Source: an uncultured Bacteroidota bacterium (GTDB taxonomy: Bacteria > Bacteroidota > Bacteroidia > Bacteroidales > 4484-276). From it: a stretch of DNA of 53,274 nucleotides. Below the pieces are notes generated by a model. It had not been told where the DNA came from. It searched no databases and saw nothing but the letters and a program-made list of their open reading frames with translations. The number at the start of each line of letters is the position of its first letter. The first letter of the stretch is position 1. Where the stretch lies: NCBI GenBank assembly GCA_903944895.1, contig CAJATL010000097.1, positions 1-53,274 of the forward strand, written 5' to 3'. The position numbers and the translations under genes are program-made. Shown here in pieces: positions 8,870 to 31,005 of this stretch.

Positions 8870-8915
8870 AGTCACCATCAGGAATTAATTTCAGATAAAC
8901 TAAAAATTGACAATT

Positions 8916-11108
8916 ATGAAAAAAATAATATTTCCGGTACTACTGATCTTTCTGCTGCTGTCGGCCTTTAGGGGCATGGCACAGCCGATTCAGCTCCGAA
9001 TTCCGGCGCTTACATCAACTGTTGGAAACGCTGTTGATGTGCCTGTTTATGTTGATAATTCGGTAACAGGTTTAAATGTTTTTGCCTATCAGCTTAAAAT
9101 AACATACAACAGCAATTACATCAATTATACTTCCATCGAAATTGTCGGAACCATGGTACAAAGCTGGGGAAGCCCGATGGTAAACAGCACAACTCCAGGA
9201 ACGCTTATACTTGCCGGAGCAGGAACTTCACCACTCATCGGAACGGGTGTGTTGTTTTACATTCGCTTCCAGTGCATTTCGGCAGGGACATCTTCGCTCA
9301 ATTTTAACGGCGGCGCAGCAAGCAATTTTTTTAATGAAGGCACGCCGGTAATGACTTTTGTAAATGGCAGCCTGGTTGTTAACGCGCTTCCTACCATCAC
9401 CGTTTCGCCAAATACGGCACTGCTTTCGGTTGGAGAAACACAGCAGTTTACAGTAAGCGGCGGCACTGCGCCTTACACCTGGGGAATAACCAATCCTGCT
9501 GTGGCATCAATCAGCACATCCGGGTTACTTACAGCTACTGCGGCAGGCTTTACGCAGGTTTCAGCTACTGATAATAACGGAATTACTGATCTGACTAACG
9601 GTGATATCGAAATCAGGGCTATGAAACTGACGTTTCCAACAACAAGTGCTTTACAGGGAACCATTGTCGAAATTCCGGTGAATGTAACAAACCTCTCTGG
9701 TCTGGGCTGTGTTTCGGGGAATTTTACAGTTACCTTTAACCAGAATATTCTTACGGCAACAGGTTATAATACAACCGGTACTTTGTTGAGCGGTTACCCG
9801 AATATTACAATCAACAACGCTATTGGTGGAACCGTGCAAATTGCTTTTGCAGGGACGATCCCGTTAAGCGGAAGTGGCATATTAATTAACCTGCAGTTTC
9901 AGGTTTCATCGGTAAATACCGGAACTTCAGCGTTGAACTTTACATCGGCACAATTTAATGAAACCATGCTTGCAAAGACTGTAAACGGAAGTTTTTCGAC
10001 CATCAACCTGCCTGCCATCACCATTTCGCCAAATACTTTTACAATGGTTGCCGGTGAAACCAAACAATTTACGGCAAGCGGGGGTACGGCTCCTTATTCC
10101 TGGAAATCTTCCGATAATTTGCTTGCAACAGTAAATGCCACCGGATTGTTAACGGCAAACCGTGGTGGAATTGTAATGCTAACTGCCACCGACAATAACG
10201 GTGCATCGGGTACTGGCGGAAACATAACTATCTACGACACTTATGTTTCAGTACTTTCATCAGGAGTTGTGCCCGGTTCTGTTATTGATTTGCCAATAGC
10301 AATGTCAAGCTTACCTGCCGGTAAATCGGTGTATTCAGTTGAAGGAACCATCAGTTATAAATCACCCGAACTCGCTGCCCTCGACATTATAAGCACCGGC
10401 ACGATGACTTCAGGCTGGACATTTTCGAAAAATGTTTCAGGCAACAAAATAACTTTTGCAGGCGCCGGTACGACAAATTTCAGCGGACCAGGAACAATGT
10501 TTTACATCAGGTTTCAAACCACCGCAAATTTAACCCTGGGTGAAGTGGCTTACGTGAATATTGACAATATACTTTTAAACGAGGGCGATCCTTCGGCGCG
10601 CATTCAAAATGGCGCTATCACAGGAAGCTCACCTGCAACCGAGTCGTTAACTTTATCTGCTGGCTGGTCTGGAATTTCAGCGTATCTTTCCCCTTCAGAT
10701 CCAAACATTGTTAACATGTTTGCACCTGTTCAGTCTAATTTGTTGATGCTTTATAATTCGACTACTACCTATTCGCCGCCGTTGGGAATTTTACCAGTAA
10801 ATCCCTGGAACGCTTCCTCGGGTTATTTTATTAAAATGAGTGCACCTCAAACATTCGTCGTTTCGGGAATACAAAATACCAACAAAACGCTCAACTTGTC
10901 TGCCGGATGGAATCTGATACCCGTAATAAGCAGCACACCGGTGAATTGTGCGGGTTTATTGTCAGGAGTTAATTTCGTTATCATTAAGGAAGCTGTCGGT
11001 ATAAAAATGTACTGGCCTGCAAGTGCCATTCAAACACTTACAACATTGCAGCCTGGTAACTCTTACCTGATTTATATGAACAGCGCCGGGAATATCGTAT
11101 TTCCTTAG
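8916..11108 (+). CDS. Secreted protein with three cohesin-like domains, two Ig-like (Big_2) domains and a C-terminal GWSGIS module
   Basis: A 730-aa product from the ATG at 8916 (an in-frame TTG at 8907 is less likely because the signal peptide MKKIIFPVLLIFLLLSAFRG starts at the ATG). The order is: cohesin-like 1 (about 24-157), Big_2-like (158-235, TITVSPNTALLSVGETQQF), cohesin-like 2 (236-365), Big_2-like (366-440, same motif), cohesin-like 3 (441-572). The C-terminal module at 583-730 is shared with three other proteins in the window. Each cohesin-like unit has the VDVPVYVxN...F.YQLKITY...AGAGT pattern of cohesins. No T9SS domain is present, yet the protein is exported. Downstream of the dockerin-bearing protein and probably co-transcribed, it looks like a small scaffoldin. 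Whether its cohesins bind that dockerin is inference. Confidence 0.8.
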   Translation: MKKIIFPVLLIFLLLSAFRGMAQPIQLRIPALTSTVGNAVDVPVYVDNSVTGLNVFAYQLKITYNSNYINYTSIEIVGTMVQSWGSPMVNSTTPGTLILAGAGTSPLIGTGVLFYIRFQCISAGTSSLNFNGGAASNFFNEGTPVMTFVNGSLVVNALPTITVSPNTALLSVGETQQFTVSGGTAPYTWGITNPAVASISTSGLLTATAAGFTQVSATDNNGITDLTNGDIEIRAMKLTFPTTSALQGTIVEIPVNVTNLSGLGCVSGNFTVTFNQNILTATGYNTTGTLLSGYPNITINNAIGGTVQIAFAGTIPLSGSGILINLQFQVSSVNTGTSALNFTSAQFNETMLAKTVNGSFSTINLPAITISPNTFTMVAGETKQFTASGGTAPYSWKSSDNLLATVNATGLLTANRGGIVMLTATDNNGASGTGGNITIYDTYVSVLSSGVVPGSVIDLPIAMSSLPAGKSVYSVEGTISYKSPELAALDIISTGTMTSGWTFSKNVSGNKITFAGAGTTNFSGPGTMFYIRFQTTANLTLGEVAYVNIDNILLNEGDPSARIQNGAITGSSPATESLTLSAGWSGISAYLSPSDPNIVNMFAPVQSNLLMLYNSTTTYSPPLGILPVNPWNASSGYFIKMSAPQTFVVSGIQNTNKTLNLSAGWNLIPVISSTPVNCAGLLSGVNFVIIKEAVGIKMYWPASAIQTLTTLQPGNSYLIYMNSAGNIVFP

Positions 11109-11140
11109 TAATCGATCTAAAAGGGAAAACAAATCATACT

Positions 11141-11186
11141 AAACCTGCTTCTGAATCACATTTGGTGCTTTGGAAGCAGGTTTTTA
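11141..11186 (+). terminator. Rho-independent terminator after the cohesin gene
   Basis: AAACCTGCTTC (11141-11151) pairs with GAAGCAGGTTT (11173-11183) and is followed by T residues, 33 bp past the stop codon. It ends the beta-helix/cohesin operon. Confidence 0.8.
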
Positions 11187-12201
11187 CGTATTGAAAAGTA
11201 TCTTCAATAATTGTATTCCTTTTCTCTTGCACGGTAATTATTCCAGAAATCAATAAAAAAAACTTCAAGCTTCAAGCTTCTTTTTCACTACCGGCTCAGT
11301 AGAATTATTCAAAAACCCTGATCCTCTTGATTTCCTTCGTCACTCAGACTTCGATGTGAACATAGTTGAGCGCCGGCTGACCAAACTGAATAATAATCAG
11401 ACAGCATCGATTTTTTCAGGATATCCAAAGGAGAAAAGAAATCACCAGTAACACAAACAGCGGTTAAGCTCATCATTCTATCCAAAACTGCTCATTTTTT
11501 TAATTCGATGTATTTGGATTTTTGGAGCAGCAAGTTTTCGCTGAAATGGAAATTTTGGAGGTGGCTTTTACCTTTTTATTCATCACAAGGTCTTAAATGA
11601 TCTCCAAAGCCAGTGTATACACTTAATGGCTCCAGCCTTGAGTAGTGCGTGTTTTGACAGGGTTTTGCCGAAGAATTACTTAAAACTTAAATTACTACTC
11701 ATCCAGGCTGATTTTTTTAAAACAACCACGAATTGAAGAATTGTAAATTTTTAGAAAATAATTTGCAAACTATTCATTATTAATGTTTAAAAAACCTAAT
11801 GATGAATGTTTGATGTAATGAGCTTTGGTATTTGATGAAATTTTGATGATACAAAAAATTAGGAAAAGCATTACACGTAACTATAATTTAGCAGAGCATT
11901 TTTGAAAAAATCTGAAGTTTAAGGTTTAAAAATTTCTGGTTTTGGATAAGGGTTGCCGAAATGCTGAAATCGGAGAATAATTTAGAATTCCGGAGATGTT
12001 GATGAGAAACGGCTGCTTTATTTTAGTATTGTATTGCTCTGGATTTTTTTTAAAAATGTAAACAGTTGATAATATGTCTGACCGGTTTTGGAATTTCAGT
12101 CCTGGCTCAGAAAATAAAATGGCATCGGATTTTTAACAGTATTTCTACAAAACAAAAACTACAACAAGCAAGCTTGCAAAAAAATGAAGGGATTTTTAAT
12201 C
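11187..12201. other. AT-rich 1-kb intergenic region
   Basis: There is no credible gene on either strand between the cohesin terminator and the GH81 start. One plus-strand stretch (about 11250-11450) stays open for about 60 codons but has no start codon and a stop just upstream. A short direct repeat of CTTCAAG occurs near 11265. The region must carry the promoter of the GH81 operon, but no clear TAnnTTTG box stands out. Confidence 0.5.
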
Positions 12202-16329: not shown

Positions 16330-16356
16330 ATTTAATATTCAATAAAAATTAACGTT

Positions 16357-19300
16357 ATGAAAAATTATTTACTCGTTTTTATGATGCTATTCGCGCTCAA
16401 TATTTTTGCGCAAAGCACACACACAATTGACTTTGAGCCAGGAGGAACCGGCACTGACTGGGTTTGGGTGGTTGCTAACAACGCCAGCAATCCTCCGCTT
16501 GAATTTGTTACCAATCCTAACAATACCGGCATCAATATAAGTGCGAAGGCAGCAAAATTTACCGCTAAGGTAGGAGGAGCCACATACGCAATGTGTTGGA
16601 CCGATGGAGATGGCGAGTTTACCTTTAATGCAGCAAACTCAACGGTAAAAATTATGGTCTATAAATCGCGTACAAGCGATGTCGGCATAAAATTCGAAGG
16701 CAGTAGCCCGGCTGTTGAATTAAAGGTTGCCAATACGTTAATCAACCAATGGCAGGAATTAACCTTCAATTTTACGGCTTCTATCGGAAACAAATACTCA
16801 AGGCTGGTCATTATGCCCGACTTTGCTGCCAGGACTGCAGATCAAATTGTTTACTTCGACAACATTAAGGTTCCTGATGGAGTGGTAACCGGTCCATTGC
16901 CTGAACCCACAACAGTTCCGCCGATCCCTTCCCACGCTCAGGTGGATGTAATTTCTGTTTACGGTGAGGCTTACACCAATCTGTCAGGAACAGATTTTAC
17001 CCCAAATTGGGGACAAACAACATCAGTTACTGTTGATTACATGGCTGCCGGAAACAAAACACTAAGGTACCAAAACCTGAACTATCAGGGCACACAATAC
17101 TCAAATCAGAATGTTTCGGGTTATGAATATTTGCATGTTGATTTCTGGACACCTAATTCGACAGCGCTAAAGTTTTTCCTCATCAGCCCGGGTGCCGAAA
17201 CTTTCTATACACTTCCAATTACCACCAACCAATGGGTAAGTGTGGATATCCCATTGACCCATTTTGTTCCACCGGTGAATCTTGCCAATGTTTTCCAGTT
17301 TAAAGTTGATGGAAACGGAACAGTGTATTTCGACAACTTGTATTTCTGGAAAAGCCCATCCGCACCTGGCTTTGATGCTACATTGAGCGATCTCAAGGTT
17401 GATGGAGTGACCATTGATGGATTTTCGCCATTAATACAGGAATACACGATGGAGTTGCCCGAAGGAACTACTCAGGTGCCTGTTCTTACCGCAACTACCA
17501 ATGACCCCCAAGCGACCCACATTGTTAATAATGTTGCATCCTTACCAGGAACCTCCGAAGTTGTGGTAACCTCAGCCAACGGCAGTGTCGTAAAAACATA
17601 TTTAGTCGAATTTACAGTTGCCGGGCCGGTAACCGGATCGGAATACTGTGAAACAGAAGTATATCATTTTGGAAATCCTTTGGAGGTAGCTTCGGCAATT
17701 TTTCTTACCATTACAAATTCAGGTGCCAACTCAATGCTTGTCGAAATCGAATCGGCTAATGATGATCCCGTGGATCTTTTAATCATAACCGGTGGCAGCG
17801 GAGCAACAATTTCAGGCGAAAACACCATAATTCCCGGCAAAATCAGCCGGACGTTAAACTGGGCTTCCAATCCTCCTGTTGATGTTATCCTTAATGTTTT
17901 GTGGAGCAAAGTCTCCTTTGGAGGCAACTGGATGCTGATTGAAGGCCAAATCACGGTACCTTTTGAGGCAAGCTGTGGCGCCATCGAACCAAAACCTTAC
18001 CTGGCGCTTGATATACAGGATGACTTCGAAAATAGCGGCTGGGGAAACATCTCCAACTGGAAATTCCAGGATGCTGCTACACTTGCTAATCTGGTAATTA
18101 CCACTGATCCGGTAATTACCACAAATCACGTGGCCGATTACGACCGCTCGGGAACTTTCGATTATACCAACGCCCAGTTTACACTCAATCACCGCATGGA
18201 TCTCACCTCACGCAATAGGTTTGAAATGAGGGTGTATTTCCCTTCCAGCAACGATTACACGGGAACACTCACCCCGACAGCCGCAATCAAACTGCAAAAT
18301 AGCCTGCTTGGCGCTAATGCATGGACAACCCAGACTGTAAAGTCTAAAACGATTACCCAGTTTGACCAGTGGGTAACCCTTGAATTCGATTTTACCACCC
18401 AAGCCGATAGCGTTAATTATGACCAGATCGTGGTACAACTTGGAGGCGAAAATCATTTTACACCGGCACAGTTCTATTTTGATATGTTCAGGTTGTTGCC
18501 TGCTACTACTTTTGTTGTAGCTGATTTCACTGCCACTCCGCGTTCTGGTTATGCGCCCTTAACTGTTCAGTTTAGCGACTATTCAACCGGTACTCCAACA
18601 AGTTGGAAATGGGATTTTAATAATGATGGCATAATTGATTCACAAGTGCAAAATCCTACCTACACCTACCAAACACCGGGTGTGTATTCGGTTAAATTAA
18701 AGGCAGAAACCCTTTTCAAGACAAATGAAATTACAAAATCGAATTATATCACCGTTTCAGAACTGGTGCTGCCCAATTATACTTACACCAATTTTGATGA
18801 CCAGATTAATGTTGAATTTTCGGGATTGCCTAATAATCCTGAAACAGTTGTCAATCCTGATGCTTCGGGGATTAATACAAGCGCAAATGTTGGAAAATGG
18901 GTAAGATCAGCGGGACTTGATTCGCATATTTTTACGGTTCTTGATTCAAAAATTGATTTCACCGGCGGGCAGGTTTTCCACCTGAAACTACATTCCCCGG
19001 TAATTGGTAACGTTTTGTTCAAGCTCGAAGATAACCTCAATGTGGCTTTGCCGGTCGAACGTTCGGTCGCAATTACAAAGTTAAATCAGTGGGAAAATCT
19101 GGTATTTAATTTTGCAGGAACGGGTTCTGGTTTATATGATAAAATTACCATTTTTATTGATTTTGGTTCGGCCAATGACAATACTTTCTATTTTGACGAT
19201 TTGCTGGGACCTATTTTGGAAGTCCCTGTTGTTGAAAAGCCTTACCTCGCTTTAGATGTACAGGATAATTTTGAAAACGATGGATACGCCACCATTTCCG

Positions 19301-21120
19301 AATGGTATTTTCAGGATCCGGGAATTGTGCCGCTACCTGTGGTTGTTGATCCGCTCAATCCAACAAATCATGTTGCCGGTTATAATCGGTCAGGAAGCTT
19401 TGAATGGACAAACGCACAGTTTATTCTCGATCACCGCATGGATTTGACCAACAGAAATAAATTCGGGATGAAAGTTTTCTTTCCATCTTCAAATAATTAC
19501 ACCGGTGCATTAACAAAAACTGCAGCAATAAAGCTTCAAAACAGCTTGCTTGGCGGAGCCGCTTATCAAACTCAGGCCGAAATACTTGTAACCGTGACCC
19601 AGTTAGACCAGTGGTTAAATCTTATCTTCGATTTTAGTGCGCCTGAGATTACTTCACGCACCGATTTCGACCAGGTTGTCATTCAGTTCGGTGGAGAAGG
19701 ACATCTTGTGCCTGCTCAGTTTTATTTTGACGACCTCGAACTTAAGGATGTTACTGCAGGTGGTAATCTGAGTTTTTATCCCACCAACGGAGCAACCGGA
19801 ATTGATGTCTTGATAAACCCGGCATTGAATTTTAACCTACCTGTTACTTTGGCTAACGGAAATGAAATTTTAAACAGTGATATAGCAAGCATTGTTACCT
19901 TTAAGGAAACCAATGAGGGTGGTGCCAGCGTGCCTTTTTCCGGAACGATAAATGCTACCAAAACGATGATTACACTTATTCCCGATGCTGATCTTAATTA
20001 TGAGGCGGTTTATTTTGTGTCTCTAAATAATGATGTGATCCGCTACCTTGATGCTGACCTGATTGCCGGGCAAAGTATAACCTTTACAACAGCGATTGAA
20101 CCAAAACCTTACCTGGCAATTGATGTACGCGATAATTTTGAAAATGACGGCTGGGGAACAATTGAAAACTGGAAATTTCAGGATAGCCCCAGTCTTATAG
20201 ACCTAACCATCACCACCGTTCCTGGAAATCCTTCAAACCATGTTGCCGGTTATAATCGGTCAGGAAGCTTTGAATGGACAAACGCACAGTTTATCCTCGA
20301 TCACCGCATGGATTTGACCAGCAGAAATAAATTCAGGATGAAAGTTTTCTTTCCATCATCAAATAATTATACCGGTGGATTAACAAAAACTGCAGCAATA
20401 AAACTTCAAAACAGCCTGCTTGGCGGATTAGCCTATACAACCCAGGCCGAAATACTTGTAACCGTTACCCAGCTTGACCAGTGGGTAAATCTTACCTTCG
20501 ATTTTAGTGCACCGGAGATTACTTCGCGCACCGATTTCGACCAGGTTGTCGTCCAGTTCGGTGGAGAAGGTCATCTTGTGCCGGCTCAGTTTTATTTTGA
20601 CGACCTCAGGTTGTTTGGAATTGAGGAAGTAATACAGCAGTCAGTTCAATTGACAGGTGGCTGGAGCGGCCTTTCAGGTTATGTTGTCCCTGAAAATGCA
20701 AACCTCGACGACATGCTTGCATCTCTGGAAAATCTGGTGATTTTGTACAATTATGATGGAATTTATATGCCGTCACAGGGAACAAACACGCTTGTCAACT
20801 GGAATCCTGCTCAGGGTTACATTGTCAAACTCACAGCCAACGATGAACTGGTTATCGAGGGTTTTGAAACAGCAAGTCCTGCAATAACGCTGGCGCCCGG
20901 CTGGTCGGTTGTGCCGGTAATAAGCTCCTGTAACGTTGATGCAGCAAGCCTGCTTGGAGAATACGAACAGATTGTAATGGTGAAAGAAGTTGCCGGCAGT
21001 GGCGTTTACTGGCCCGAAAATGCAATCAATTCGCTTGTAAACCTTGTTCCCGGAAAAGCTTATTTTTTCCTGACCAATGCGGCGGTATCATTCACCTATC
21101 CGGCTTGCGGGGCTAAATAA
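16357..21120 (+). CDS. Giant secreted multi-module glycan-binding-like protein (paralogue 1) with C-terminal GWSGIS module
   Basis: A 1587-aa exported protein without a recognisable catalytic domain; signal peptide 1-19. Modules in order: A jelly-roll (20-175, ends YFDNIKVPDG), B jelly-roll (191-333, NWGQ ... FQFKVDGNGTVYFDN), C cadherin-like beta-sandwich (340-422, DATLSDLKVDG), D (427-541, SEYCETEVYHFG ... FEASC), E1 (546-714, KPYLALDIQDDFENSGWG), PKD (720-801), F jelly-roll (808-952), E2 (962-1130), SbsA-type Ig (1139-1246), E3 (1250-1419), and the two-half GWSG module (1435-1587). The DFENxGWG ... GQFYFDDLEL pattern of E is typical of carbohydrate-binding beta-sandwiches. E2 and E3 are nearly identical at DNA level. 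There is no T9SS domain. It lies between GH81 and a second paralogue (27 and 52 bp gaps), so it probably binds beta-glucan at the cell surface; this is inferred from context. Confidence 0.75.
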   Translation: MKNYLLVFMMLFALNIFAQSTHTIDFEPGGTGTDWVWVVANNASNPPLEFVTNPNNTGINISAKAAKFTAKVGGATYAMCWTDGDGEFTFNAANSTVKIMVYKSRTSDVGIKFEGSSPAVELKVANTLINQWQELTFNFTASIGNKYSRLVIMPDFAARTADQIVYFDNIKVPDGVVTGPLPEPTTVPPIPSHAQVDVISVYGEAYTNLSGTDFTPNWGQTTSVTVDYMAAGNKTLRYQNLNYQGTQYSNQNVSGYEYLHVDFWTPNSTALKFFLISPGAETFYTLPITTNQWVSVDIPLTHFVPPVNLANVFQFKVDGNGTVYFDNLYFWKSPSAPGFDATLSDLKVDGVTIDGFSPLIQEYTMELPEGTTQVPVLTATTNDPQATHIVNNVASLPGTSEVVVTSANGSVVKTYLVEFTVAGPVTGSEYCETEVYHFGNPLEVASAIFLTITNSGANSMLVEIESANDDPVDLLIITGGSGATISGENTIIPGKISRTLNWASNPPVDVILNVLWSKVSFGGNWMLIEGQITVPFEASCGAIEPKPYLALDIQDDFENSGWGNISNWKFQDAATLANLVITTDPVITTNHVADYDRSGTFDYTNAQFTLNHRMDLTSRNRFEMRVYFPSSNDYTGTLTPTAAIKLQNSLLGANAWTTQTVKSKTITQFDQWVTLEFDFTTQADSVNYDQIVVQLGGENHFTPAQFYFDMFRLLPATTFVVADFTATPRSGYAPLTVQFSDYSTGTPTSWKWDFNNDGIIDSQVQNPTYTYQTPGVYSVKLKAETLFKTNEITKSNYITVSELVLPNYTYTNFDDQINVEFSGLPNNPETVVNPDASGINTSANVGKWVRSAGLDSHIFTVLDSKIDFTGGQVFHLKLHSPVIGNVLFKLEDNLNVALPVERSVAITKLNQWENLVFNFAGTGSGLYDKITIFIDFGSANDNTFYFDDLLGPILEVPVVEKPYLALDVQDNFENDGYATISEWYFQDPGIVPLPVVVDPLNPTNHVAGYNRSGSFEWTNAQFILDHRMDLTNRNKFGMKVFFPSSNNYTGALTKTAAIKLQNSLLGGAAYQTQAEILVTVTQLDQWLNLIFDFSAPEITSRTDFDQVVIQFGGEGHLVPAQFYFDDLELKDVTAGGNLSFYPTNGATGIDVLINPALNFNLPVTLANGNEILNSDIASIVTFKETNEGGASVPFSGTINATKTMITLIPDADLNYEAVYFVSLNNDVIRYLDADLIAGQSITFTTAIEPKPYLAIDVRDNFENDGWGTIENWKFQDSPSLIDLTITTVPGNPSNHVAGYNRSGSFEWTNAQFILDHRMDLTSRNKFRMKVFFPSSNNYTGGLTKTAAIKLQNSLLGGLAYTTQAEILVTVTQLDQWVNLTFDFSAPEITSRTDFDQVVVQFGGEGHLVPAQFYFDDLRLFGIEEVIQQSVQLTGGWSGLSGYVVPENANLDDMLASLENLVILYNYDGIYMPSQGTNTLVNWNPAQGYIVKLTANDELVIEGFETASPAITLAPGWSVVPVISSCNVDAASLLGEYEQIVMVKEVAGSGVYWPENAINSLVNLVPGKAYFFLTNAAVSFTYPACGAK

Positions 21121-21172
21121 GAAGCTTTTTTTGATAAATTTTAATTAAACGAACTTCTAATAATTATTCAAG

Positions 21173-24100
21173 ATGAAATATTTAATAACAATATTCACCG
21201 TGTTATTGGCCTTTTATGCTTCGGCGCAAAGCACCTTCACGGTCGATTTTGAGCCAGCAGGCACCGGTTCTGAGTGGAATTGGATAGTCACTGAAAATGC
21301 TTCCAATCCGCCACTCGAATTCATTGCAAATCCGAATAGCGGCGGCATTAACACCAGCGCTACCGTTGCCAAATTTACCGCAAAAGCAACCGGCAATCCA
21401 TGGGCGCTATGCTTTACCGACGACAACGGTGAGTTTACCTTTGATGCGACCAACTCAACTATAAAAATCATGGTTTTTAAAACCGTGATCAGCAATGTGG
21501 GCATTAAATTCGAAGGTTTCAGCCCGGCTGTCGAAATTCTGATTCCTAACACACTTATCAATCAATGGGAAGAAATTACATTCAACTTTTCTGCCCAGAT
21601 CGGAAAAACTTACAACAGGCTTGTCGTTATTCCCGACTTTGCTCCCAGGACAGTGGATCATATTATTTATTTCGACAACATCAGGCTTCCCGAAGGCGTG
21701 CCACCAGGTCAATTACCTGAACCCACAACTGCGCCACCGATCCCTTCCCACGCTCAGGCGGATGTAATTTCGATTTACAGCGAAGCTTACACCAATTTGG
21801 CAGGAACAAATTTTAACCCGAATTGGGGACAATCAACAATCGTAACTTTTGATTATCTCGTGGCCGGAAATAACACGCTGAGGTATCAAAACCTGAATTA
21901 CCAGGGAACAGAACTGGTGAATACGGACGTTTCGGAGTATGAATTTATCCATGTTGATTTCTGGACACCCAACTCAACACTGCTGAATTTTTCACTGATC
22001 AGCACGGGTCCACTCGAAAAACCATATTCACTGCCAATAACCGAAGAAACATGGGTAAGCGTTGACATACCATTATCGTATTTCGTTCCGCCGGTGAATC
22101 TTGCGGATGTTTTCCAGTTTAAGGTTGACGGGAACGGTACTGTTTATTTCGACAACTGGTATTTCTGGAAAAGCCCGGCTGGACCGGGAACTGACGCCAC
22201 GTTAAGTGATCTTAAAGTAAATGGAACGACCATTCCAGGGTTTTCACCATCAATACTCAATTACACGATGGAATTGCCCGAAGGTACTACTCAGGTGCCG
22301 GTGGTTACCGCTACTACCAACGATCCCGAGGCGAGCCACATTGTAAACAATGCGCCAACCTTACCAGGAACTACAGAAGTTGTGGTTACCTCAGCAAACG
22401 GCAATGTCGTAAGAACTTATGCTGTTGCTTTTACAGTGGCAGGATCAACACCAGGTTCGGAATACTGCGAAACAGAAGTATTTCATTTTGGTAATCCATT
22501 GGAGGAAGCTTCAGCCATTTATCTCACCATTACAAATTCGGGCGCCACCTCAATGTTTGTCGAAATCGAATCGGCAAATGATGATCCGGTGGATGTATTA
22601 ATTGTAACCGGTGGTAGCGGAGCAACAATTTCGGAAGAAAACTTTAGCGTTCCCGGAAGAATCAGCCGGACCTTAACCTGGGCTTCCAATCCGCCTGCCA
22701 ATGTAACTTTAAATATTTTATGGAGCAAAGTATCATCCCCCGGCAACTGGATGTTGATCGAAGGAGAATTCACTGTGCCCTTTGAGGCAACTTGTGGTGG
22801 TACTACCCAAAAACCCTACCTTGCCATTGATGTGCAGGATAATTTTGAGAATAACGGCTGGGGAACAATCACCAACTGGAACTTCCAGGATCCTGATCTG
22901 CTCCCTTTAAACATCACCACCGATCCGCAAAATGCATCCAACCATGTGGCCGATTACGATCGCTCAGGAAGTTTTGAATGGACAAATGCACAGTTTATCC
23001 TCAATCACCGGATGGATTTGACCGAAAGAAATACTTTCGATTTGAAGGTGTATTTTCCTTCATCAAATAATTATACAGGTTTGTTGCTTCCAAAGGCTGC
23101 AATGAAACTACAGAACAGCCTTCTTGGCCCAAATGCCTGGACTACACAAACCGAAGTTGGGATTACCATTACTCAGTTTGACCAGTGGGTAAATCTGACC
23201 TTCGATTTTGGGGCAGTTGCCGACAGCATGAATTACGACCAGGTTGTTGTTCAGTTTGGTGGTGAAGGACATCTTGTTCCAGGCCAGTTTTATTTTGACG
23301 ACCTCGAACTTAACGATGTTTCAGCCAATGGAACTTTGAGTTTTTATCCCGGCAACGGTGCAACCGGAATTGATGTCTGGGTTAGCCCGACATTGAATTT
23401 TACGGTTCCTGTTACTTTGGCCGATGGCAGTGAAATTATGAATAATGATATTTCATCAATTGTAACGTTCAAGGAAACCAATGCCGGCGGAGCCAATGTG
23501 CCGTTTACCGGAACAATCAATGCGACAAAAACAATGATTACGCTTGATCCCGTTGCTGATCTCAATTATGGACAGGTTTATTATGTAGCCTTAAATAATG
23601 AAGTAATCCGTTACCTTGATGCCGACCTGATCGCTGGGCAAAGCATAACTTTTACAACGGCCATTGCGCCTAAACCTTACCTGGCACTTGATGTACGCGA
23701 TAATTTTGAAAATGACGGCTGGGGAACAATTGATAACTGGAAATTTCAGGATAGTCCCGATCTTGTTGACCTTACCATCACCACCGACCCTGCAAATCCT
23801 TCGAACCATGTTGCCGATTACGACCGTTCGGGAAGTTTTGAATGGACAAATGCCCAGTTTATTCTGGATCACAGGATGGATTTAAATATCCGCAACACTT
23901 TTGATATGAAGGTGTATTTCCCGTCGTCGAACAATTATACCGGTTTGTTGCTTCCAAAAGCTGCTATCAAATTACAAAACAGCCTTCTTGGCCCAAATGC
24001 CTGGACCACACAAACCGAAGTATTGATGACCGTTACCCAGTTTGATCAGTGGGTAAATCTTACCTTCGACTTCAGTGCAATAGCCGACAGCATAAATTAC

Positions 24101-25297
24101 GACCAGATTGTAGTGCAATTTGGTGGTGAAGGACATTTTGTTCCCGGACAGTTCTATTTCGATAATTTCGAGCTGAATGGCTCATCGGCAAACGGGAGCC
24201 TGGCTTTTTATCCGCCAAACGGCGCTACAGGAATTGATGTTTCGGTAAGCCCGACATTAACGTTTACAGTGCCGGTGACATTGGCCAACGGAAGTGCAAT
24301 TTCAAACAGTGATATTGCCAACATTGTAACTTTTAAAAAAACCAATGCAGGTGGCGCCAGTGTTCCTTTTACCGGAACCATCAATGCCGGAAAAACGATC
24401 ATCACCATCAATCCCAATGCTGACCTCGACAATGGAACAGTGTATTATGTGGCTTTGAATGATGAAGTGATCCGCTACCTTGATGCTGACCTGATTCCGG
24501 CGCAAAGCGCTACTTTTACAACCCTGGTATTTGTAAAACCTTACCTGGAATTAAGTGTCCGGGATAATTTCGAAAATAACGGCTGGGGAAACATTGACAA
24601 CTGGTTTTTCCAGGATCCGGATATGATGGAATTGCCTGTTACCACCGACCCGACAAACCCTTCGAACCATGTGGCCGATTATAGCCGTTCGGGAGCTTTT
24701 GAATACACCAATGCCCAGTTTGTGCTAGACCATCGCATGGATTTGACAGTTAGGGACCTTTTCCGCATCAGGGCATATTTCCCATCATCGAACAACTACA
24801 CGGGCGCACTCACCCCAACATTGGCCATAAAACTTCAAAACAGTCTGCTTGGCGGCAATGCCTGGACAACACAAACCGAAATAGTAAAAACTGTATCTGT
24901 TTTTGATCAATGGTTGACCCTTTACTTAGAATTCACAACGGCTGCCGACAGCGTAAATTACGACCAGGTTGTCGTCCAGTTTGGTGGTGAAGGGCATTTA
25001 GTTCCCGGCCAGTTCTATTTTGATGATATTGATTTACTCATTGATGTTATCGGCGTTCCGGAGATAGAGGTTTCACAATTCGAATTATTCCCAAATCCCG
25101 CTCAGGACTTTATTGGGATTAGCAATTTTGGGTTGATAGAAACAATCAGTATTTTCACGATGTCAGGAAGTAAAGTTTTATCCGAAAATCAGCCTGACGG
25201 AAATATCAATATCTCCGATCTCAGACCAGGGATTTATCTGATGGTGATCATGGATCAAAATGGCCGGAATTTTCAACGGAAGTTTATCAAAAAATAA
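21173..25297 (+). CDS. Giant secreted multi-module glycan-binding-like protein (paralogue 2) with T9SS domain
   Basis: A 1374-aa paralogue of the preceding protein; signal peptide 1-19. The same N-terminal order A (20-175), B (189-333), C (340-423), D (429-541) is followed by E1 (547-715), SbsA-type Ig (722-830), E2 (833-1002), SbsA-type Ig (1009-1116), E3 (1122-1290) and a type A T9SS C-terminal domain (1299-1374, FELFPNPAQD ... RPGIYLMVI). It thus swaps the GWSG module of paralogue 1 for a standard T9SS signal, which makes the pair useful for asking what that module does. I see no catalytic motif. Likely role: surface glucan capture alongside GH81, possibly as a scaffold. The MITE-like repeat just downstream separates it from paralogue 3. 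Confidence 0.75.
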   Translation: MKYLITIFTVLLAFYASAQSTFTVDFEPAGTGSEWNWIVTENASNPPLEFIANPNSGGINTSATVAKFTAKATGNPWALCFTDDNGEFTFDATNSTIKIMVFKTVISNVGIKFEGFSPAVEILIPNTLINQWEEITFNFSAQIGKTYNRLVVIPDFAPRTVDHIIYFDNIRLPEGVPPGQLPEPTTAPPIPSHAQADVISIYSEAYTNLAGTNFNPNWGQSTIVTFDYLVAGNNTLRYQNLNYQGTELVNTDVSEYEFIHVDFWTPNSTLLNFSLISTGPLEKPYSLPITEETWVSVDIPLSYFVPPVNLADVFQFKVDGNGTVYFDNWYFWKSPAGPGTDATLSDLKVNGTTIPGFSPSILNYTMELPEGTTQVPVVTATTNDPEASHIVNNAPTLPGTTEVVVTSANGNVVRTYAVAFTVAGSTPGSEYCETEVFHFGNPLEEASAIYLTITNSGATSMFVEIESANDDPVDVLIVTGGSGATISEENFSVPGRISRTLTWASNPPANVTLNILWSKVSSPGNWMLIEGEFTVPFEATCGGTTQKPYLAIDVQDNFENNGWGTITNWNFQDPDLLPLNITTDPQNASNHVADYDRSGSFEWTNAQFILNHRMDLTERNTFDLKVYFPSSNNYTGLLLPKAAMKLQNSLLGPNAWTTQTEVGITITQFDQWVNLTFDFGAVADSMNYDQVVVQFGGEGHLVPGQFYFDDLELNDVSANGTLSFYPGNGATGIDVWVSPTLNFTVPVTLADGSEIMNNDISSIVTFKETNAGGANVPFTGTINATKTMITLDPVADLNYGQVYYVALNNEVIRYLDADLIAGQSITFTTAIAPKPYLALDVRDNFENDGWGTIDNWKFQDSPDLVDLTITTDPANPSNHVADYDRSGSFEWTNAQFILDHRMDLNIRNTFDMKVYFPSSNNYTGLLLPKAAIKLQNSLLGPNAWTTQTEVLMTVTQFDQWVNLTFDFSAIADSINYDQIVVQFGGEGHFVPGQFYFDNFELNGSSANGSLAFYPPNGATGIDVSVSPTLTFTVPVTLANGSAISNSDIANIVTFKKTNAGGASVPFTGTINAGKTIITINPNADLDNGTVYYVALNDEVIRYLDADLIPAQSATFTTLVFVKPYLELSVRDNFENNGWGNIDNWFFQDPDMMELPVTTDPTNPSNHVADYSRSGAFEYTNAQFVLDHRMDLTVRDLFRIRAYFPSSNNYTGALTPTLAIKLQNSLLGGNAWTTQTEIVKTVSVFDQWLTLYLEFTTAADSVNYDQVVVQFGGEGHLVPGQFYFDDIDLLIDVIGVPEIEVSQFELFPNPAQDFIGISNFGLIETISIFTMSGSKVLSENQPDGNINISDLRPGIYLMVIMDQNGRNFQRKFIKK

Positions 25298-25318
25298 CAA
25301 GTTTTTGTTTATGAGAAA

Positions 25319-25469
25319 GAGACTGTCTCAAAATATAATATTAACCGCAGAGTAGCGCAGAGTTATAACGCAGAGAACCGCAAAGAAATTTATTTCAACG
25401 TGTTGTCTCTGCGGCCCTTTGCGTCTTTCTTTGTGTCCTTTGCGTTTTTATAACATTTAAGACAGCCTC
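25319..25469. repeat. MITE-like intergenic element with imperfect inverted ends
   Basis: Ends GAGACTGTCTCAAA (left) and TTTAAGACAGCCTC (right) form an inverted repeat with two mismatches. Inside, the left arm has repeated CGCAGAG/CGCAAAG words and the right arm has their complements (CTCTGCGG, CTTTGCGTCTTTC, CCTTTGCG), so the whole ~150 bp can fold on itself. It encodes nothing visible and fits a non-autonomous mobile or REP-like repeat. Confidence 0.6.
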
Positions 25470-25531
25470 TTTATTCTAATCCAGGCAAATTCGTTTTTAA
25501 ATAAATTTAATACTAACTAAAAATTATCATT

Positions 25532-28500
25532 ATGAAGAATTTATTACTTGCTTTAATGATGCTATTCGCGATCAGTTCGATTGCGCAAAGCACGCACAAC
25601 ATCGATTTTGAGCCGGGAGGAACCGGTGCCGACTGGACGTGGATCATGACCGAAAACGGCAGTAATCCACCTCTTGAGTTTGTTGCCAATCCTAACAATG
25701 GCGGCATCAACACAAGTGCAACAACAGCAAAGTTTATTGCTAAGGTAGGAGGAAATCCCTGGGCTTTATGCTTTACCGATGGAGATGGAGTGTTTACTTT
25801 TGATGCAACCAACGCAGTTGTAAAAATCATGGTTTACAAACCAACCATCAGCAACATAGGCATGAAATTCGAAGGATTTAGCGGCGATTTTCAGATTCTG
25901 GTACCAAACACCTTAATTAACCAATGGGAAGAGATCACATTCGATTTTTCGGCTAAAATCGGAAGCACTTACAGCCTGATTGTAATCATCCCTGATTTTA
26001 CTTTCGGCGGCAGACCAACGGATAATGTGCTTTATTTCGATAATCTTCAGGTTCCCGACGGTTTTACCGTACCTCCTTTGGCCGAACCAACAACAGTTCC
26101 GCCTGTTCCGGCACACTCTGCCGAAAATGTGCTTTCCGTTTATACCGAAGTTTACATCAATATCCCGGGAACCAATTTCACTCCTAACTGGGGACAATCA
26201 ACGGGAGTAACCGTTAATTATAACGCAGCCGGAAACAATACGCTCAAATATGCAAACCTGAACTATCAGGGAACACAATACACAAATCAGAATGTTTCTG
26301 GATATGAGTACATCCATGTGGACTTTTGGACGCCAAATTCAACGCTGTTGAGATTTTTCGTAATCAGCCCTGGTGCCGAAACTTTCTATACACTTCCAAT
26401 TACCCCCAACGAATGGGTCAGTGTGGACATACCTTTAACTCACTATGTTCCGCCGGTAAATCTTGCCGATGTTTTCCAATTTAAAGTCGATGGAAACGGA
26501 ACTGTATATTTCGACAATTTATATTTCTGGAAAAATCCTACTGCTGTCGGAACTGACGCATCATTGAGCGATCTTAAGGTGGATGGAACTACCGTTCCCG
26601 GATTTTTGCCAACCATATTGAGTTATTCAGTCGAATTGCCTATAGGTACAGTAACCGTGCCTGTGGTTACGGCAACTACCAATGATCCCGAAGCTGAGTA
26701 TATGGTAAATGATGCAGCAGCTTTGCCTGGAACTACCGAAGTTGTGGTTACCGCGGCCGATGGAACTACCATTAAAACCTATTCGATCGAGTTTACCGTG
26801 GCTGGCGTGGCTCCAGGATCGGAATATTGCGAAAAATTGGTTTATCATTTTGGCATTGAAGCTGAAGTGCAATCGGCTATTTATTTAACCATCAAAAATT
26901 TTGATGCCCTCTCGATGATTGTCGAAATCGAATCAGCAACTGCTGATCCGGTGGATTTGTTAATCATTAACAACGGCAGCGGAGCAGCAATTTCAGGTGA
27001 AAACACATCAGTTCTAGGAAAAATCAGCAAGATATTATCCTGGCCTTCTAACCCTCCGGAAAATGTAACATTGAATGTTTTGTGGAGTAAAGCATCGTTC
27101 GGTGGAAATTGGATGTTAATTGAAGGCGAATTCACCGTGCCTTTTGAAGCAGGTTGCGAGCCTGCAGGTCCGGCTCCGGTTACTTTCAGGGTTGATATGA
27201 ATGAATTTGCCGGCACGTTCACCAATGTTTATGTCAGCGGATCTTTCAATGGCTGGTCGGGTGGTGCCAATCAACTGCTCGATCCGGAAACGGATGGCGT
27301 TTATGAAGCTGAACTTTTGTTGGAAAACGGAAGTTATGAATACAAATTCACCCTCGATGGCTGGGCCGTTCAGGAAGAGTTTCTGGGAGGCGAGCCTTGC
27401 GTTATTACAGTGGATGGATACCACAACAGAGCCCTCACCGTAACCGGAGCAACCTCGCTGCCATTGGTTTGCTGGAACAGTTGCTATGCATGTGGCGAAG
27501 CACCAGTGCCAAAAGATGTAACCTTCCAGGTTGACCTTTCACAATTCGGTGGAACTTTTTCAAAAGTTTATGTCAGTGGCAGCTTCAATAACTGGTGCGG
27601 CAACTGCAATGAGCTTACCGATCCGGAATTGGACGGAGTTTACAACGCCACTCTTTCAATGATGGATGGCCAGTACGAATATAAATTTACCATGGATGGC
27701 TGGGCAATTCAGGAAGAATTTGTACCTGGCGAACCCTGTACTTCAACCATCGGTGGCTACACCAACCGCACTTTATTGGTTGATCAGACAATTATTCTAC
27801 CTGTTGTTTGCTGGAATCTTTGCGATGGTTGCCCAACTTATCAAAAAGGTTGGAGCGGCATTTCGAGCAATCTTATCCTGGATGCCAAAATGAGTATGGA
27901 AGAAGTTTTTGCACCTGTATTGGATGACATGGTAATTTTGCTTGGATTAAACGGAATGTTCTGGCCCGAACATGGTATCAACACGCTTGGCGAATGGGAT
28001 ACTTACCAGGGATATAAAGTAAAATTTGAGAAAGGCGTTATTTTTGAATTTACTGGCAGCGAACCAACCGACAGAACGGTTTCAGTTAATCCTGGTATTG
28101 TTTATGTCCCGGTTTTAAGCCAGGAGCCTGTAGCTGTTGCAGATGTAGTTATGCCTTTGGGCGACGATATTTTATTTATGTTTGATATCGCCAGTGGTGA
28201 GATTTACTGGCCACAGGGTGGATTGGTACCCGGTGTTGGCGGAGCTTTGGAAATGCTTTATCCTGGATTTGCTTACCTTACCAGGGTAATAAATCCTACC
28301 GTTTTTGATTTTGGCAGTACACCACCGAAATCCGGTTATTCCTCAAGGACTTCTTATCAAAATATCGAAGTTCCGGCATGGAATGAAGTTTCACCAACCG
28401 GCTCACAGCATATTATTTCATTGGCAACTGCAACCCTTACTACAGGTGATGTTGTTGGTGCTTTTAATGCTGATGGAATTTGTGTTGGAAAAGCAGCTTT

Positions 28501-28972
28501 TAACGGCAGCGAAAATATGATTCCCCTCGTCGTTTTTGGTGATGATGCAACAACCAAAAATAACGATGGCATGGCTTCCGGCGAAGAAATGTCGTTCAGG
28601 ATTTATCGCGCTGGCCAGGAAATTGCTGTTACGGCAGTTTATGATCATTCAGTTGCAAATTACGATGGTTTTTATACCCAAAACGGCTTATCGATAATTC
28701 GTGAACTGAAAGCAGGAACAACCGGAATCATCAGTCAGCAAAGGGCAACTTTCAGCATATTCCCTAACCCGGGAAATGGTCAGATTTTCATTAACCTAAC
28801 TAAAGATGGCATTTATAATGTTTCAGTTTCCAGCTCACAGGGACAGCAGGTTTTCTTGACAACAATCAGCGGCTCGCAGCATCTCGATTTAAGCGCACTC
28901 TCGAAAGGTGTGTATTTTATCAGGGTATCCGATGCATCTTCAGTAGCTGTCGAAAAGATGGTGATCAGATAA
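25532..28972 (+). CDS. Secreted multi-module glycan-binding-like protein (paralogue 3) with two CBM48/CBM20-like domains and T9SS domain
   Basis: A 1146-aa third paralogue; signal peptide 1-19. N-terminal modules A (20-178), B (193-333), C (340-423) and D (428-542) match paralogues 1 and 2. In place of the E modules it has two tandem E-set domains (548-656 and 660-766) with VYVSGSFNGW/NNW and DGxYEYKFTxDGW, resembling the glycogen/starch-binding CBM48/CBM20 class; both have extra cysteines near NRxLxVxxxxxLPxVCWN. A GWSG module (773-about 925) follows, with its second half degenerate (the GW is lost). Next are a domain of the GDVVGAFNADGICVG type (about 930-1060) and a type A T9SS domain (1072-1146, FSIFPNPGNG ... 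KGVYFIRVS). This is the only protein here with both the GWSG module and a T9SS signal. No catalytic domain is seen. Confidence 0.75.
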   Translation: MKNLLLALMMLFAISSIAQSTHNIDFEPGGTGADWTWIMTENGSNPPLEFVANPNNGGINTSATTAKFIAKVGGNPWALCFTDGDGVFTFDATNAVVKIMVYKPTISNIGMKFEGFSGDFQILVPNTLINQWEEITFDFSAKIGSTYSLIVIIPDFTFGGRPTDNVLYFDNLQVPDGFTVPPLAEPTTVPPVPAHSAENVLSVYTEVYINIPGTNFTPNWGQSTGVTVNYNAAGNNTLKYANLNYQGTQYTNQNVSGYEYIHVDFWTPNSTLLRFFVISPGAETFYTLPITPNEWVSVDIPLTHYVPPVNLADVFQFKVDGNGTVYFDNLYFWKNPTAVGTDASLSDLKVDGTTVPGFLPTILSYSVELPIGTVTVPVVTATTNDPEAEYMVNDAAALPGTTEVVVTAADGTTIKTYSIEFTVAGVAPGSEYCEKLVYHFGIEAEVQSAIYLTIKNFDALSMIVEIESATADPVDLLIINNGSGAAISGENTSVLGKISKILSWPSNPPENVTLNVLWSKASFGGNWMLIEGEFTVPFEAGCEPAGPAPVTFRVDMNEFAGTFTNVYVSGSFNGWSGGANQLLDPETDGVYEAELLLENGSYEYKFTLDGWAVQEEFLGGEPCVITVDGYHNRALTVTGATSLPLVCWNSCYACGEAPVPKDVTFQVDLSQFGGTFSKVYVSGSFNNWCGNCNELTDPELDGVYNATLSMMDGQYEYKFTMDGWAIQEEFVPGEPCTSTIGGYTNRTLLVDQTIILPVVCWNLCDGCPTYQKGWSGISSNLILDAKMSMEEVFAPVLDDMVILLGLNGMFWPEHGINTLGEWDTYQGYKVKFEKGVIFEFTGSEPTDRTVSVNPGIVYVPVLSQEPVAVADVVMPLGDDILFMFDIASGEIYWPQGGLVPGVGGALEMLYPGFAYLTRVINPTVFDFGSTPPKSGYSSRTSYQNIEVPAWNEVSPTGSQHIISLATATLTTGDVVGAFNADGICVGKAAFNGSENMIPLVVFGDDATTKNNDGMASGEEMSFRIYRAGQEIAVTAVYDHSVANYDGFYTQNGLSIIRELKAGTTGIISQQRATFSIFPNPGNGQIFINLTKDGIYNVSVSSSQGQQVFLTTISGSQHLDLSALSKGVYFIRVSDASSVAVEKMVIR

Positions 28973-29003
28973 ATAAGTGACTTGTAGTTTTTTTCATAAC
29001 GTA

Positions 29004-29031
29004 AAAGGCAGGTTTAACCACCTGCTTTTTT
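29004..29031 (+). terminator. Rho-independent terminator after paralogue 3
   Basis: GCAGGT (29008-29013) pairs with ACCTGC (29020-29025), followed by TTTTTTG, 32 bp past the stop codon. It separates the giant binding proteins from the GH16 gene. Confidence 0.75.
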
Positions 29032-29111
29032 GTTTTTATTTGGACGAACAGGAAGTGCCACGCTGGAATACAAATCTTAATACGAATCGGAAATACACAC
29101 TTGATAATTGT

Positions 29112-29119
29112 TAATTTTG
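29112..29119 (+). promoter_or_regulatory. Candidate -7 box for the GH16 gene
   Basis: TAATTTTG matches TAnnTTTG and lies 17 nt before the ATG at 29137, with AAAGGAAA between them as a possible ribosome binding site. It overlaps the alternative TTG start at 29101, which argues for the ATG. No good -33 element is seen. Confidence 0.35.
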
Positions 29120-29136
29120 AAAAAAAGGAAATTGTA

Positions 29137-31005
29137 ATGAAAAATTTTAGGATGATGGATTTGAAGTTGAAAAAGATAAGTTTGATGTGGATGTTTCTAA
29201 TGTTTGGGTATTTTCTTCATGCCCAGTCCATCGAAATTACTTATTGTCCCGACTATGGCGAAAATGCGCTCTTGCAAGGCAGGGCTTACGTGGTAAATCC
29301 CGCTGAATATGGCGTGGTTTGTTACGTTTTTGTCCAGGAAGGCGGAGGCTGGTGGGGGCCAAAGCCTTCGTTTACTAATCCCGTCACGCCGCTCCAGACT
29401 GATGGTTCATTTTCGGTTCAGTTTATCAGCGGTGGGTACGACGAATTTGGTACACGGATTTTTGTTTATCTGAAGCATAATTCCTGGCCGGCAGCACCGC
29501 AGGTTTCGGGAGGCGAGTTGCCTCAATATCTTCTCGACCTGCCATACGACGTGATAGCTCGTCCTCATGGCACCCGGAAATTTTCCTGGCCCAATCAGGA
29601 ATATTCCTGGACTGTTAAAGAATCGCTCGACGGAATAGCGATGGGCCCCGGCGATAACCTTTTCTCGGCAGCCCAGGAAAATATCTGGATTGATCCGCAG
29701 GGACAACTGCATCTCAAAATCACCAAAACGAACGGCTTGTATTATTCCTCCGAAATTATTGCCGACACAGCTTTTGGTTATGGCAAATATTCGTTTGTTT
29801 ACAACAGTAACCCCAACATTCTTGACCCAAAAAGCGTTTTTGGCTTTTTCACCTGGGACGATGTCAGCCCATATTCTTCCGACAGGGAGGCCTGGTACCG
29901 GGAAATTGATTTTGAGTTTTCGCGATGGGGAAATGCCGGCGACCCAACAAATGCACAATTCGTGATTCAGCCCTGGGAGCCTGCCGGAAACCTGATGAGG
30001 TACAACACAGGAACCGCTCCGGGAACTATTCACTCCTTTGCCTGGTACAAAGATTCGGTAGTTTTTGAGAGCCGGAAAGCAGATTCTTCACTCATCAAAA
30101 AATGGATTTACACAGGTGCCTATTTGCCAGCCCCCGGCGAAGAAAATATGCGGATAAACCTGTGGCTGAATAACAAACCACCGGTTCACCTGGATGAAAT
30201 AATTCTGGGTGATTATAAATTTCAACACCATCTTAAACCTCCTGTACTTTCGGCTTCTGATGGAACTAAAGATGAATTTATCCAGCTTAACTGGAATGGC
30301 CAGGCCTGGTATTTTTACAGGATATTCCGTTCGGCAACAGCCGACTTTTCAGCCGCTGTCGTCTTAAATGACGGATGGTTCCAGGGCAGTACTTTTCAGG
30401 ATATGACAGCCGAAACCGGCAAGCGATATTCTTACTGGATCAGGTGCGCTGATAATGCTGATGGTTCTAATGTCACAGGTTACATTTCAGATATTTCGAT
30501 GCCTGATGCAGGATTTATCAGCGAAAAGCAAATGACCAGTCACAATCAGGGCTGGAGCGGAATTTCCAGTTTTATCGATCCGCTGCAACATGATCCGGAT
30601 TCGCTTTTTCAACCAATCATCGGGGAGTTGATCACTTTACAAAATTCCGAAGGTGCTTATTTTCCGGCAACCGGAGTAAATACACTTGGTTTGTGGGATT
30701 CAAAAGAAGGATACATCATCAAACTAAGTCAGCAGTTGGAAATTACTTTTTCAGGATTGCCAGTCTCCGAAAAAACGCTGATGCTCGAACAAGGCTGGAA
30801 TCTTATCCCGGTATTGTCGGGATGTTCGGTGCCGATTGGTGAACTCTTTTCAGGCACAGGGGTGGTGATGGTTAAAGAAGTTGCAGGATGGCGGCTCTGG
30901 TGGCCCGAAATGGGCGTATTCACGTTGTCACAACTCCAATCCGGAAAAGCATATTTTGTATTGATGAATGATGTTGCCGGAATCACCTTTCCGGAATGTG
31001 AGTGA
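29137..31005 (+). CDS. Secreted GH16-type glycoside hydrolase with C-terminal GWSGIS module
   Basis: A 622-aa protein from the ATG at 29137. The N-terminus (to about 30, MWMFLMFGYFLHAQ) is a signal peptide. A beta-sandwich with a GGWWGPKPSFTNP motif (about 31-135) precedes the GH16-like catalytic domain (about 135-375). The active-site strand is EIDFEFSRWG with E256 (nucleophile), D258 and E260 (acid/base). This is the unbulged ExDxE form, unlike the ExDxxE of typical laminarinases, so the substrate cannot be assumed to be beta-1,3-glucan. A fibronectin III-like domain (about 375-455) and the GWSG module (472-622) complete it. There is no T9SS domain. Context beside GH81 suggests glucan or mixed-linkage glucan breakdown. 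Confidence 0.8.
   Translation: MKNFRMMDLKLKKISLMWMFLMFGYFLHAQSIEITYCPDYGENALLQGRAYVVNPAEYGVVCYVFVQEGGGWWGPKPSFTNPVTPLQTDGSFSVQFISGGYDEFGTRIFVYLKHNSWPAAPQVSGGELPQYLLDLPYDVIARPHGTRKFSWPNQEYSWTVKESLDGIAMGPGDNLFSAAQENIWIDPQGQLHLKITKTNGLYYSSEIIADTAFGYGKYSFVYNSNPNILDPKSVFGFFTWDDVSPYSSDREAWYREIDFEFSRWGNAGDPTNAQFVIQPWEPAGNLMRYNTGTAPGTIHSFAWYKDSVVFESRKADSSLIKKWIYTGAYLPAPGEENMRINLWLNNKPPVHLDEIILGDYKFQHHLKPPVLSASDGTKDEFIQLNWNGQAWYFYRIFRSATADFSAAVVLNDGWFQGSTFQDMTAETGKRYSYWIRCADNADGSNVTGYISDISMPDAGFISEKQMTSHNQGWSGISSFIDPLQHDPDSLFQPIIGELITLQNSEGAYFPATGVNTLGLWDSKEGYIIKLSQQLEITFSGLPVSEKTLMLEQGWNLIPVLSGCSVPIGELFSGTGVVMVKEVAGWRLWWPEMGVFTLSQLQSGKAYFVLMNDVAGITFPECE

Follow-up and report, generated by a model that had tools for sequence, protein, structure and literature searches.

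A two-lobed C-terminal module that may be exchangeable with the type IX secretion tail in exported Bacteroidota proteins

What does an exported protein carry at its C-terminus when a close relative ends in a tail of the type IX secretion system (T9SS) and it does not? This question is raised by a stretch of 53,274 nucleotides, hereafter the window, which is the entire contig CAJATL010000097.1 (C97) of an uncultured Bacteroidota bacterium and encodes exported proteins, several of them bearing T9SS tails. We observed that three of the window proteins end in a recurring module of ~150 residues, and that the many copies of this module in the host genome (7.17 Mb, 424 contigs, 96% complete) stand either at the very end of the protein or at a set distance ahead of a T9SS tail. 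We put a probability of roughly one half on the reading that, in T9SS-positive Bacteroidota, the module serves at the C-terminus as an exchangeable domain for sorting or retention. A narrower proposal, to which we give less credence, sees in this duplicated domain one more C-terminal secretion signal linked to the T9SS. Such a signal would share neither sequence nor, probably, fold with the known C-terminal domains (CTDs), would act on its own at the C-terminus, often held by a disulfide close to its end, and would be interchangeable with the type A tail on gingipain-type peptidases and other enzymes.

The first-pass annotation of the window had reported four homologous modules. A search with a single copy as query recovered all four, at 10662-11108, 20659-21108, 27848-28228 (extended to 28312 by a profile) and 30550-31002, and found no fifth copy in the window at E ≤ 1. 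In P0001, P0003 and P0006 (Table 1) the module had been placed at the extreme C-terminus without a T9SS domain, and this was confirmed: the proteins stop 0, 5 and 3 residues past the profile match, and no T9SS tail model of Pfam or NCBIfam matches them at E ≤ 1. The paralogue P0004 indeed carries a T9SS tail instead of the module, with PF18962 matching at residues 1305-1374 and TIGR04183 at residues 1305-1372. The alignment of P0003 with P0004 spans 473 residues at 66% identity and breaks off ~10 residues before the P0003 module and ~7 residues before the P0004 tail. In a further paralogue, P0005, the module owes its internal position to a spacer domain and a T9SS tail that come after it; structure comparison matches this tail to the T9SS CTD 8glk (Z 12.4, 74 residues, root mean square deviation 1.5). 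The internal position had been recognized correctly, and the second half of the P0005 module had been called degenerate, which it is not in any simple sense: profile positions 1-147 are matched with 138 bits, and by eye the second half resembles a sub-type of other copies (FxFDI...IYWPxGGL).

The same alternation of C-terminal ends was seen in C25 peptidases. Five genomes of the host family hold 70 C25 matches, of which our survey took in 62, leaving aside 6 in G009 and one apiece in G007 and G011, with a tail cut-off of E 0.1; a further 88 matches are in the seven remaining family genomes. Among the 55 intact ends, 44 carry a tail, 10 carry a terminal module, 0 carry both and 1 carries neither. 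The remaining seven proteins have no stop in the stretch, and one of these has the module, the spacer and a partial tail. Nine of the 44 tail-only proteins are probably PorU-like, since they form a separate clade and lie beside PorV, leaving 35. Mutual exclusion of module and T9SS tail, as originally suggested, is thus found within particular families, such as the C25 peptidases examined, and does not hold generally.

The ten module-type C25 proteins do not cluster: two pair together, and the others lie among tail-type relatives. In a tree of the catalytic domains (54 proteins) the module label changes 9 times, with 8 changes forced by starred branches, and the mean for shuffled labels is 9.3. 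In seven tail/module pairs identity runs at 66-75% as far as the break, which in four of the seven falls between 5 residues inside and 14 residues before the module start. Tail-type and module-type genes also share arrays. Two histories would account for these data: repeated exchange of the C-terminal cassette, or gene conversion of catalytic parts among genes whose ends differ. On both, closely similar peptidases carry one end or the other. Four C25 arrays (L045, L237, L244 and L252) mix both end types, and gene conversion between arrays is suggested because several of their catalytic domains pair by genome. As a separate observation, two tandem C25-family genes lie beside PorV in G000 C335, G002 C66, G007 C28 and G011 C29 (L225, L231, L241 and L250). 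Each pair probably comprises PorU and a paralogue of it, and the host family may thus possess a duplicated sortase.

We next consider where the module stands in its proteins. For 93 full-length host copies the C-terminus of the protein is intact: 30 of them finish within 0-11 residues of it and have no T9SS tail, 58 are placed 212-242 residues upstream of it and are followed by a spacer and a T9SS tail, and 5 are located elsewhere (49, 99, 141, 541 and 766 residues from the C-terminus). The long cassette consists of the module, a spacer of ~145 residues that aligns as one domain, and a type A tail; Por_Secre_tail was found in 30/30 scanned long-cassette proteins and TIGR04183 in 48/48 cassettes. 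The spacer of P0005 and its equivalents make up a conserved, undescribed domain in their own right, without a Pfam or NCBIfam match. Counted by profile, 66 of 118 host matches are in tail-bearing proteins and 34 are terminal without a tail (30 full-length, the other 4 being fragments or weak matches). Replacement of the T9SS signal by the module, as first proposed, consequently stands for one class of proteins and falls for the larger class. Usual co-occurrence with T9SS signals, which the first-pass annotation had counted as evidence against its proposal, is by number what the host genome presents.

Both cassettes recur beyond the host. In 16 other genomes, drawn from the best 80 of 103 loci, 93 distinct open reading frames (ORFs) with the module comprise 57 with a tail, 28 terminal, 6 cut off, 1 other and 1 partial, and the two forms co-occur in 9 of the 16 genomes. 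Some of these genomes are probably identical to members of the 12-genome family set described below, so the two sets are not independent. Six genomes from other families of the order gave 42 ORFs, of which 20 have a tail, 18 are terminal (one of them a half-module fragment), 3 are other and 1 is cut off. Across the phylum, 20 copies from 14 genomes, selected from the stronger matches, divide into 14 with a tail, 5 terminal and 1 other. A third, rarer arrangement has a Fib_succ_major domain after the module (2/2 scanned); its examples, at L042 and L043, lack a T9SS tail. A single origin of the terminal modules was considered on a tree of the modules themselves (146 columns, 176 rows), where the terminal/internal label changes 23 times, compared to 48 in shuffles, and only 2 of the changes are forced by starred branches. 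We consider it an even call that exported proteins carry the module as a two-lobed C-terminal domain deployed in two exchangeable cassettes.

The proteins that end in the module have the features of exported cargo. A signal peptide is present in 27 of 28 terminal proteins with a closed N-terminus, 26 of them called by a simple ad hoc rule and 1 by eye, and the sole protein without one is a frameshifted fragment. Their catalytic domains include Peptidase_C25 with Propeptide_C25 (3/29), M14 peptidase (2/29) and C10 peptidase (1/29), and known members of these three families are often T9SS substrates. RgpB and PorU are listed among CTD proteins in a review (PMC10202324). In the general sense of a C-terminal sorting domain, the module has the expected attributes: it occupies the extreme C-terminus, its proteins have signal peptides, and it is exchanged between paralogues with another sorting domain.

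Chance resemblance between the copies is excluded because a search with copy 4 gives 116 host-genome matches at E ≤ 1, the best of them other than itself at E 3.4e-50 and the last few weak; with the profile there are 114 at E ≤ 0.001. No Pfam or NCBIfam family describes the module or the spacer in the window proteins, 85 modules and 48 long cassettes. Scattered matches in 1-3 members, the best being PF06636 (6e-4, 1/85), were taken as chance. The module is an undescribed domain in the libraries searched. The literature on alternative or tail-less T9SS signals yielded no description of such a module, and five short module motif strings matched no paper, in searches that left most of the subscription literature outside. 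Repeats of the GWNLIS/GYWIK type, which have a similar order of motifs and occur in many bacterial surface proteins, may be related, a link based on motif resemblance; no named Pfam or NCBIfam family was found for them. The host genome itself has weak relatives with a GYWVK motif.

All 12 genomes of the host family, the host included, contain the module, in numbers that range from 28 to 114 matches. Of 119 genomes sampled from the order, 19 are positive at E ≤ 1e-10, and two of these 19 belong to the host family. In a sample of the phylum 34 of 296 are positive at E ≤ 1e-5, and 29 of the 33 non-host genomes have 1 to 4 matches; at most 13 matches were scored per genome, and those at 27-45 bits may represent distant repeats of a different sort. 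The best 80 of the 103 loci are from metagenome-assembled genomes, mostly Bacteroidales/Bacteroidetes, with one Lentimicrobium, two Sphingobacteriia and one Draconibacterium. Plasmid and phage collections gave no match to one module copy at E ≤ 0.01. SprA is present in all 12 genomes of the host family and, in the phylum sample, in 34/34 module-positive genomes, and the module is in 0/69 SprA-negative genomes. This agrees with a limitation to T9SS-positive genomes, and is a weak test: the SprA and module tables were matched by eye, and 16 of the 20 SprA-negative genomes listed, out of 69, come from one family.

The two halves of the module had been noted to resemble each other, and profile comparison establishes that they are homologous (hhalign probability 98.9, E 1.3e-17, 68 columns, 28% identity). 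The predicted structure of copy 4 is compact and strand-rich, with a short helix in each half (predicted local distance difference test, pLDDT, 96.8; predicted template modelling score, pTM, 0.90). Solved structures gave no sequence match at E ≤ 1, and Foldseek gave no match in the PDB at E ≤ 0.001 (best E 0.99), where a missing match does not exclude a shared fold. The best VIA scores, Z 5.1-5.2, cover 62-65 residues of half 2 on ppnP-type proteins and are in the range of common arrangements. In the viral fold library BFVD, the top match was A0A8D9C8P8 (E 0.027, prob 0.99), a "putative hemin binding protein" labelled as coming from an uncultured marine phage.

Two cysteines mark the second half: Cys92 at its start and Cys150 at the very end of the module. 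Both are present in 110 of 195 modules and neither in 84, with 1 exception, and the co-variation is found in terminal and internal classes alike. Because the two positions co-vary almost perfectly, a disulfide between Cys92 and Cys150 probably ties down the module C-terminus in many copies; the 84 cysteine-less modules must manage without it. Residue differences between terminal and internal modules are graded only.

Three kinds of T9SS CTD, types A, B and C, are described in a review (PMC10202324), and a recent structural paper (PMC10994853) presents the CTD as a seven-stranded beta-sandwich carried by PorV. The module is like the type A CTD (PF18962, TIGR04183) in its C-terminal position on exported Bacteroidota proteins, in its kinds of cargo and in being confined to SprA-positive genomes of the sample. 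It differs in build: type A models have 72-75 positions, whereas the module has ~150 residues in two homologous halves with a helix in each. TIGR04183 matches 0/85 modules at E ≤ 0.1, and PF18962 is not among the 25 of 29 families listed for the 85 modules. Type C rests on ChiA, in which ~100 C-terminal residues are needed for efficient secretion of a reporter (PMC10202324). The type C model NF033708 is matched by 15/48 long cassettes, which bear tails, and by 0/85 modules alone, and it has no match in P0001, P0003 or P0006 at E ≤ 1.

Type B (TIGR04131, PF13585) offers a different parallel, as an alternative C-terminal signal which uses another carrier (PMC10202324). TIGR04131 matches none of the terminal proteins of the window at E ≤ 1 and 0/85 modules, and the host genome has only 6 type B matches, one below the cut-off, none of which overlaps a module match. 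Genes for type B cargo usually cluster with PorP/SprF carriers (PMC10202324), and a type B-like mechanism is disfavoured because no carrier gene was seen beside the terminal-module genes. A dedicated neighbour gene, whether carrier or sortase, was rejected, as 66 neighbours contain three homologous pairs and nothing commoner. An expansion of PorV-like carriers was likewise rejected, with only 2 or 3 matches above cut-off in each of 12 genomes.

If the module is a sorting or retention domain, its proteins might be handled as follows. A protein with a terminal module would cross the inner membrane via Sec, and the folded module would then be recognized at the outer membrane, by the T9SS translocon together with an as yet unnamed carrier, or by a surface partner. 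The terminal cassette would in this way perform the job of the tail, and the module would serve in both sorting and retention. In the long cassette, export would be achieved by the tail, and the module would be kept on the mature protein once the tail is removed. That the module itself drives export is what we infer from the arrangement of the sequences.

Several observations weigh against a sorting role. A T9SS tail accompanies the majority of module copies, as it might if the module were an ordinary surface one, and the restriction to SprA-positive genomes stems partly from the tail-bearing copies. No T9SS CTD appears among the listed structural matches of the module, which does not by itself prove a difference in fold. 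Of the 5 PorP-family genes in the host, 0 are on contigs with a terminal-module gene, a weak negative as the contigs are short, and no neighbour family occurs at more than 2 terminal-module loci of the host genome. In the C25 peptidases, the homology in 3/7 pairs stops 105-238 residues before the module, and the scatter in the tree could reflect gene conversion of catalytic parts and not at least 8 independent swaps.

The alternative that survives best takes the module for an ordinary binding or stalk module directed at glycans, the matrix or a surface partner. Tail-less proteins would then be periplasmic or follow an unrelated route, and loss of the tail would amount to relocation. We regard this as unlikely, though it accounts for much: the tail co-occurs in 66/118 host matches, the Fib_succ_major arrangement demonstrates use inside proteins, and PKD and carbohydrate-binding domains are among the companions of the module. 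Binding modules usually shuffle, whereas 88/93 host copies keep one of two fixed distances to the C-terminus and both arrangements recur across the phylum. A periplasmic fate is also hard to reconcile with the recurrent C25 peptidases, some of which have propeptides.

Alternatively, the module might act in assembly, with terminal-module proteins being carried by, or docked onto, tail-bearing module proteins through module-module or module-spacer contacts. Both forms are indeed found together in the host and in 9/16 other genomes, and 13 of the 56 immediate neighbours of host terminal-module genes are tail-bearing, 5 of these 13 also having the module. However, 40 of the 56 have neither module nor tail, and there are no fixed gene pairs. 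Such piggybacking, improbable on these counts, becomes less likely because the distant genome G210 has one match at E ≤ 1e-5 and this only match is of the terminal form.

Very little speaks for terminal copies being long cassettes that lost spacer and tail by mutation: a few module copies are broken (an in-frame TAG in L052 (C59) and a split frame in L048 (C63)), but no remnants of spacer or tail follow any of the 30 host terminal copies (900 downstream bases, three forward frames), 52 of 57 terminal copies of the host and the 16 other genomes have similar ends (F, FP or FPxC with a short extension, or something close to these), and many genera share the terminal arrangement. Decay or truncation was rejected as a general explanation on the lack of downstream remnants in these 30 copies, and the terminal form is a genuine class. 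The breaks in L052 and L048 are assembly errors or decay. In other families terminal copies often finish YPAN or YPPN.

Table 1. Exported proteins of the window and the positions of their modules, spacer and tails.
Feature	Position	Strand	Basis
Exported protein P0001, terminal module	8907..11108	+	Pfam: three cohesin and two Big_2 stretches; signal peptide
Module copy 1, terminal form, FP right at the stop	10662..11105	+	Sequence and profile search
Exported protein P0003, terminal module	16357..21120	+	Pfam: CBM_4_9, PKD, Big_5; signal peptide
Module copy 2, terminal form	20659..21117	+	Sequence and profile search; P0004 homology stops ~10 residues upstream
P0004, paralogue with T9SS tail, without module	21173..25297	+	Pfam, NCBIfam, module search
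T9SS type A tail of P0004 (residues 1305-1374), at the position of the P0003 module	25085..25294	+	TIGR04183; junction alignment
P0005, paralogue with module, spacer and T9SS tail	25532..28972	+	Pfam, NCBIfam, profile
Module copy 3, internal form (P0005)	27848..28312	+	Sequence and profile search
Spacer domain between module and tail of P0005	28313..28756	+	Profile of 61 spacers; model beta-rich; no Pfam/NCBIfam match
T9SS type A tail of P0005	28757..28969	+	NCBIfam; fold match 8glk
Exported protein P0006, terminal module	29137..31005	+	Signal peptide; GH16-like by eye, no Pfam match
Module copy 4, terminal form, end FPECE	30550..31002	+	Search and profile; model pLDDT 96.8
Half-repeat 1 of module copy 4	30550..30774	+	Half-half profile comparison
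Half-repeat 2 of module copy 4	30793..31002	+	Half-half profile comparison
Cys92 codon, first of the co-varying pair (P0006 module)	30823..30825	+	Cysteine co-variation
Cys150 codon, penultimate residue of P0006, partner of Cys92	30997..30999	+	Cysteine co-variation

Two further proteins of the window bear T9SS tails. The neighbour of P0001 (3485-8869) is an exported beta-helix protein with cohesin domains, in which dockerin-like repeats were seen by eye. The second (12184-16329), placed among the module genes, is a GH81 glucanase with CBM6; together with the GH16-like P0006 it possibly forms a beta-glucan locus.

T9SS substrates are recognized in genomes by their C-terminal domains. Should sorting be the role of the module, secretome counts would be too low in many uncultured Bacteroidales, by ~30 proteins in the host genome, peptidases included, and the translocon must either accept a different domain or work with an acceptor of one. 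Should it be a surface-docking domain, it would still be both undescribed and very abundant, and its strict rule of placement would need an explanation. The pairs of C25 paralogues that end in a tail or in the module are matched natural constructs for a direct test.

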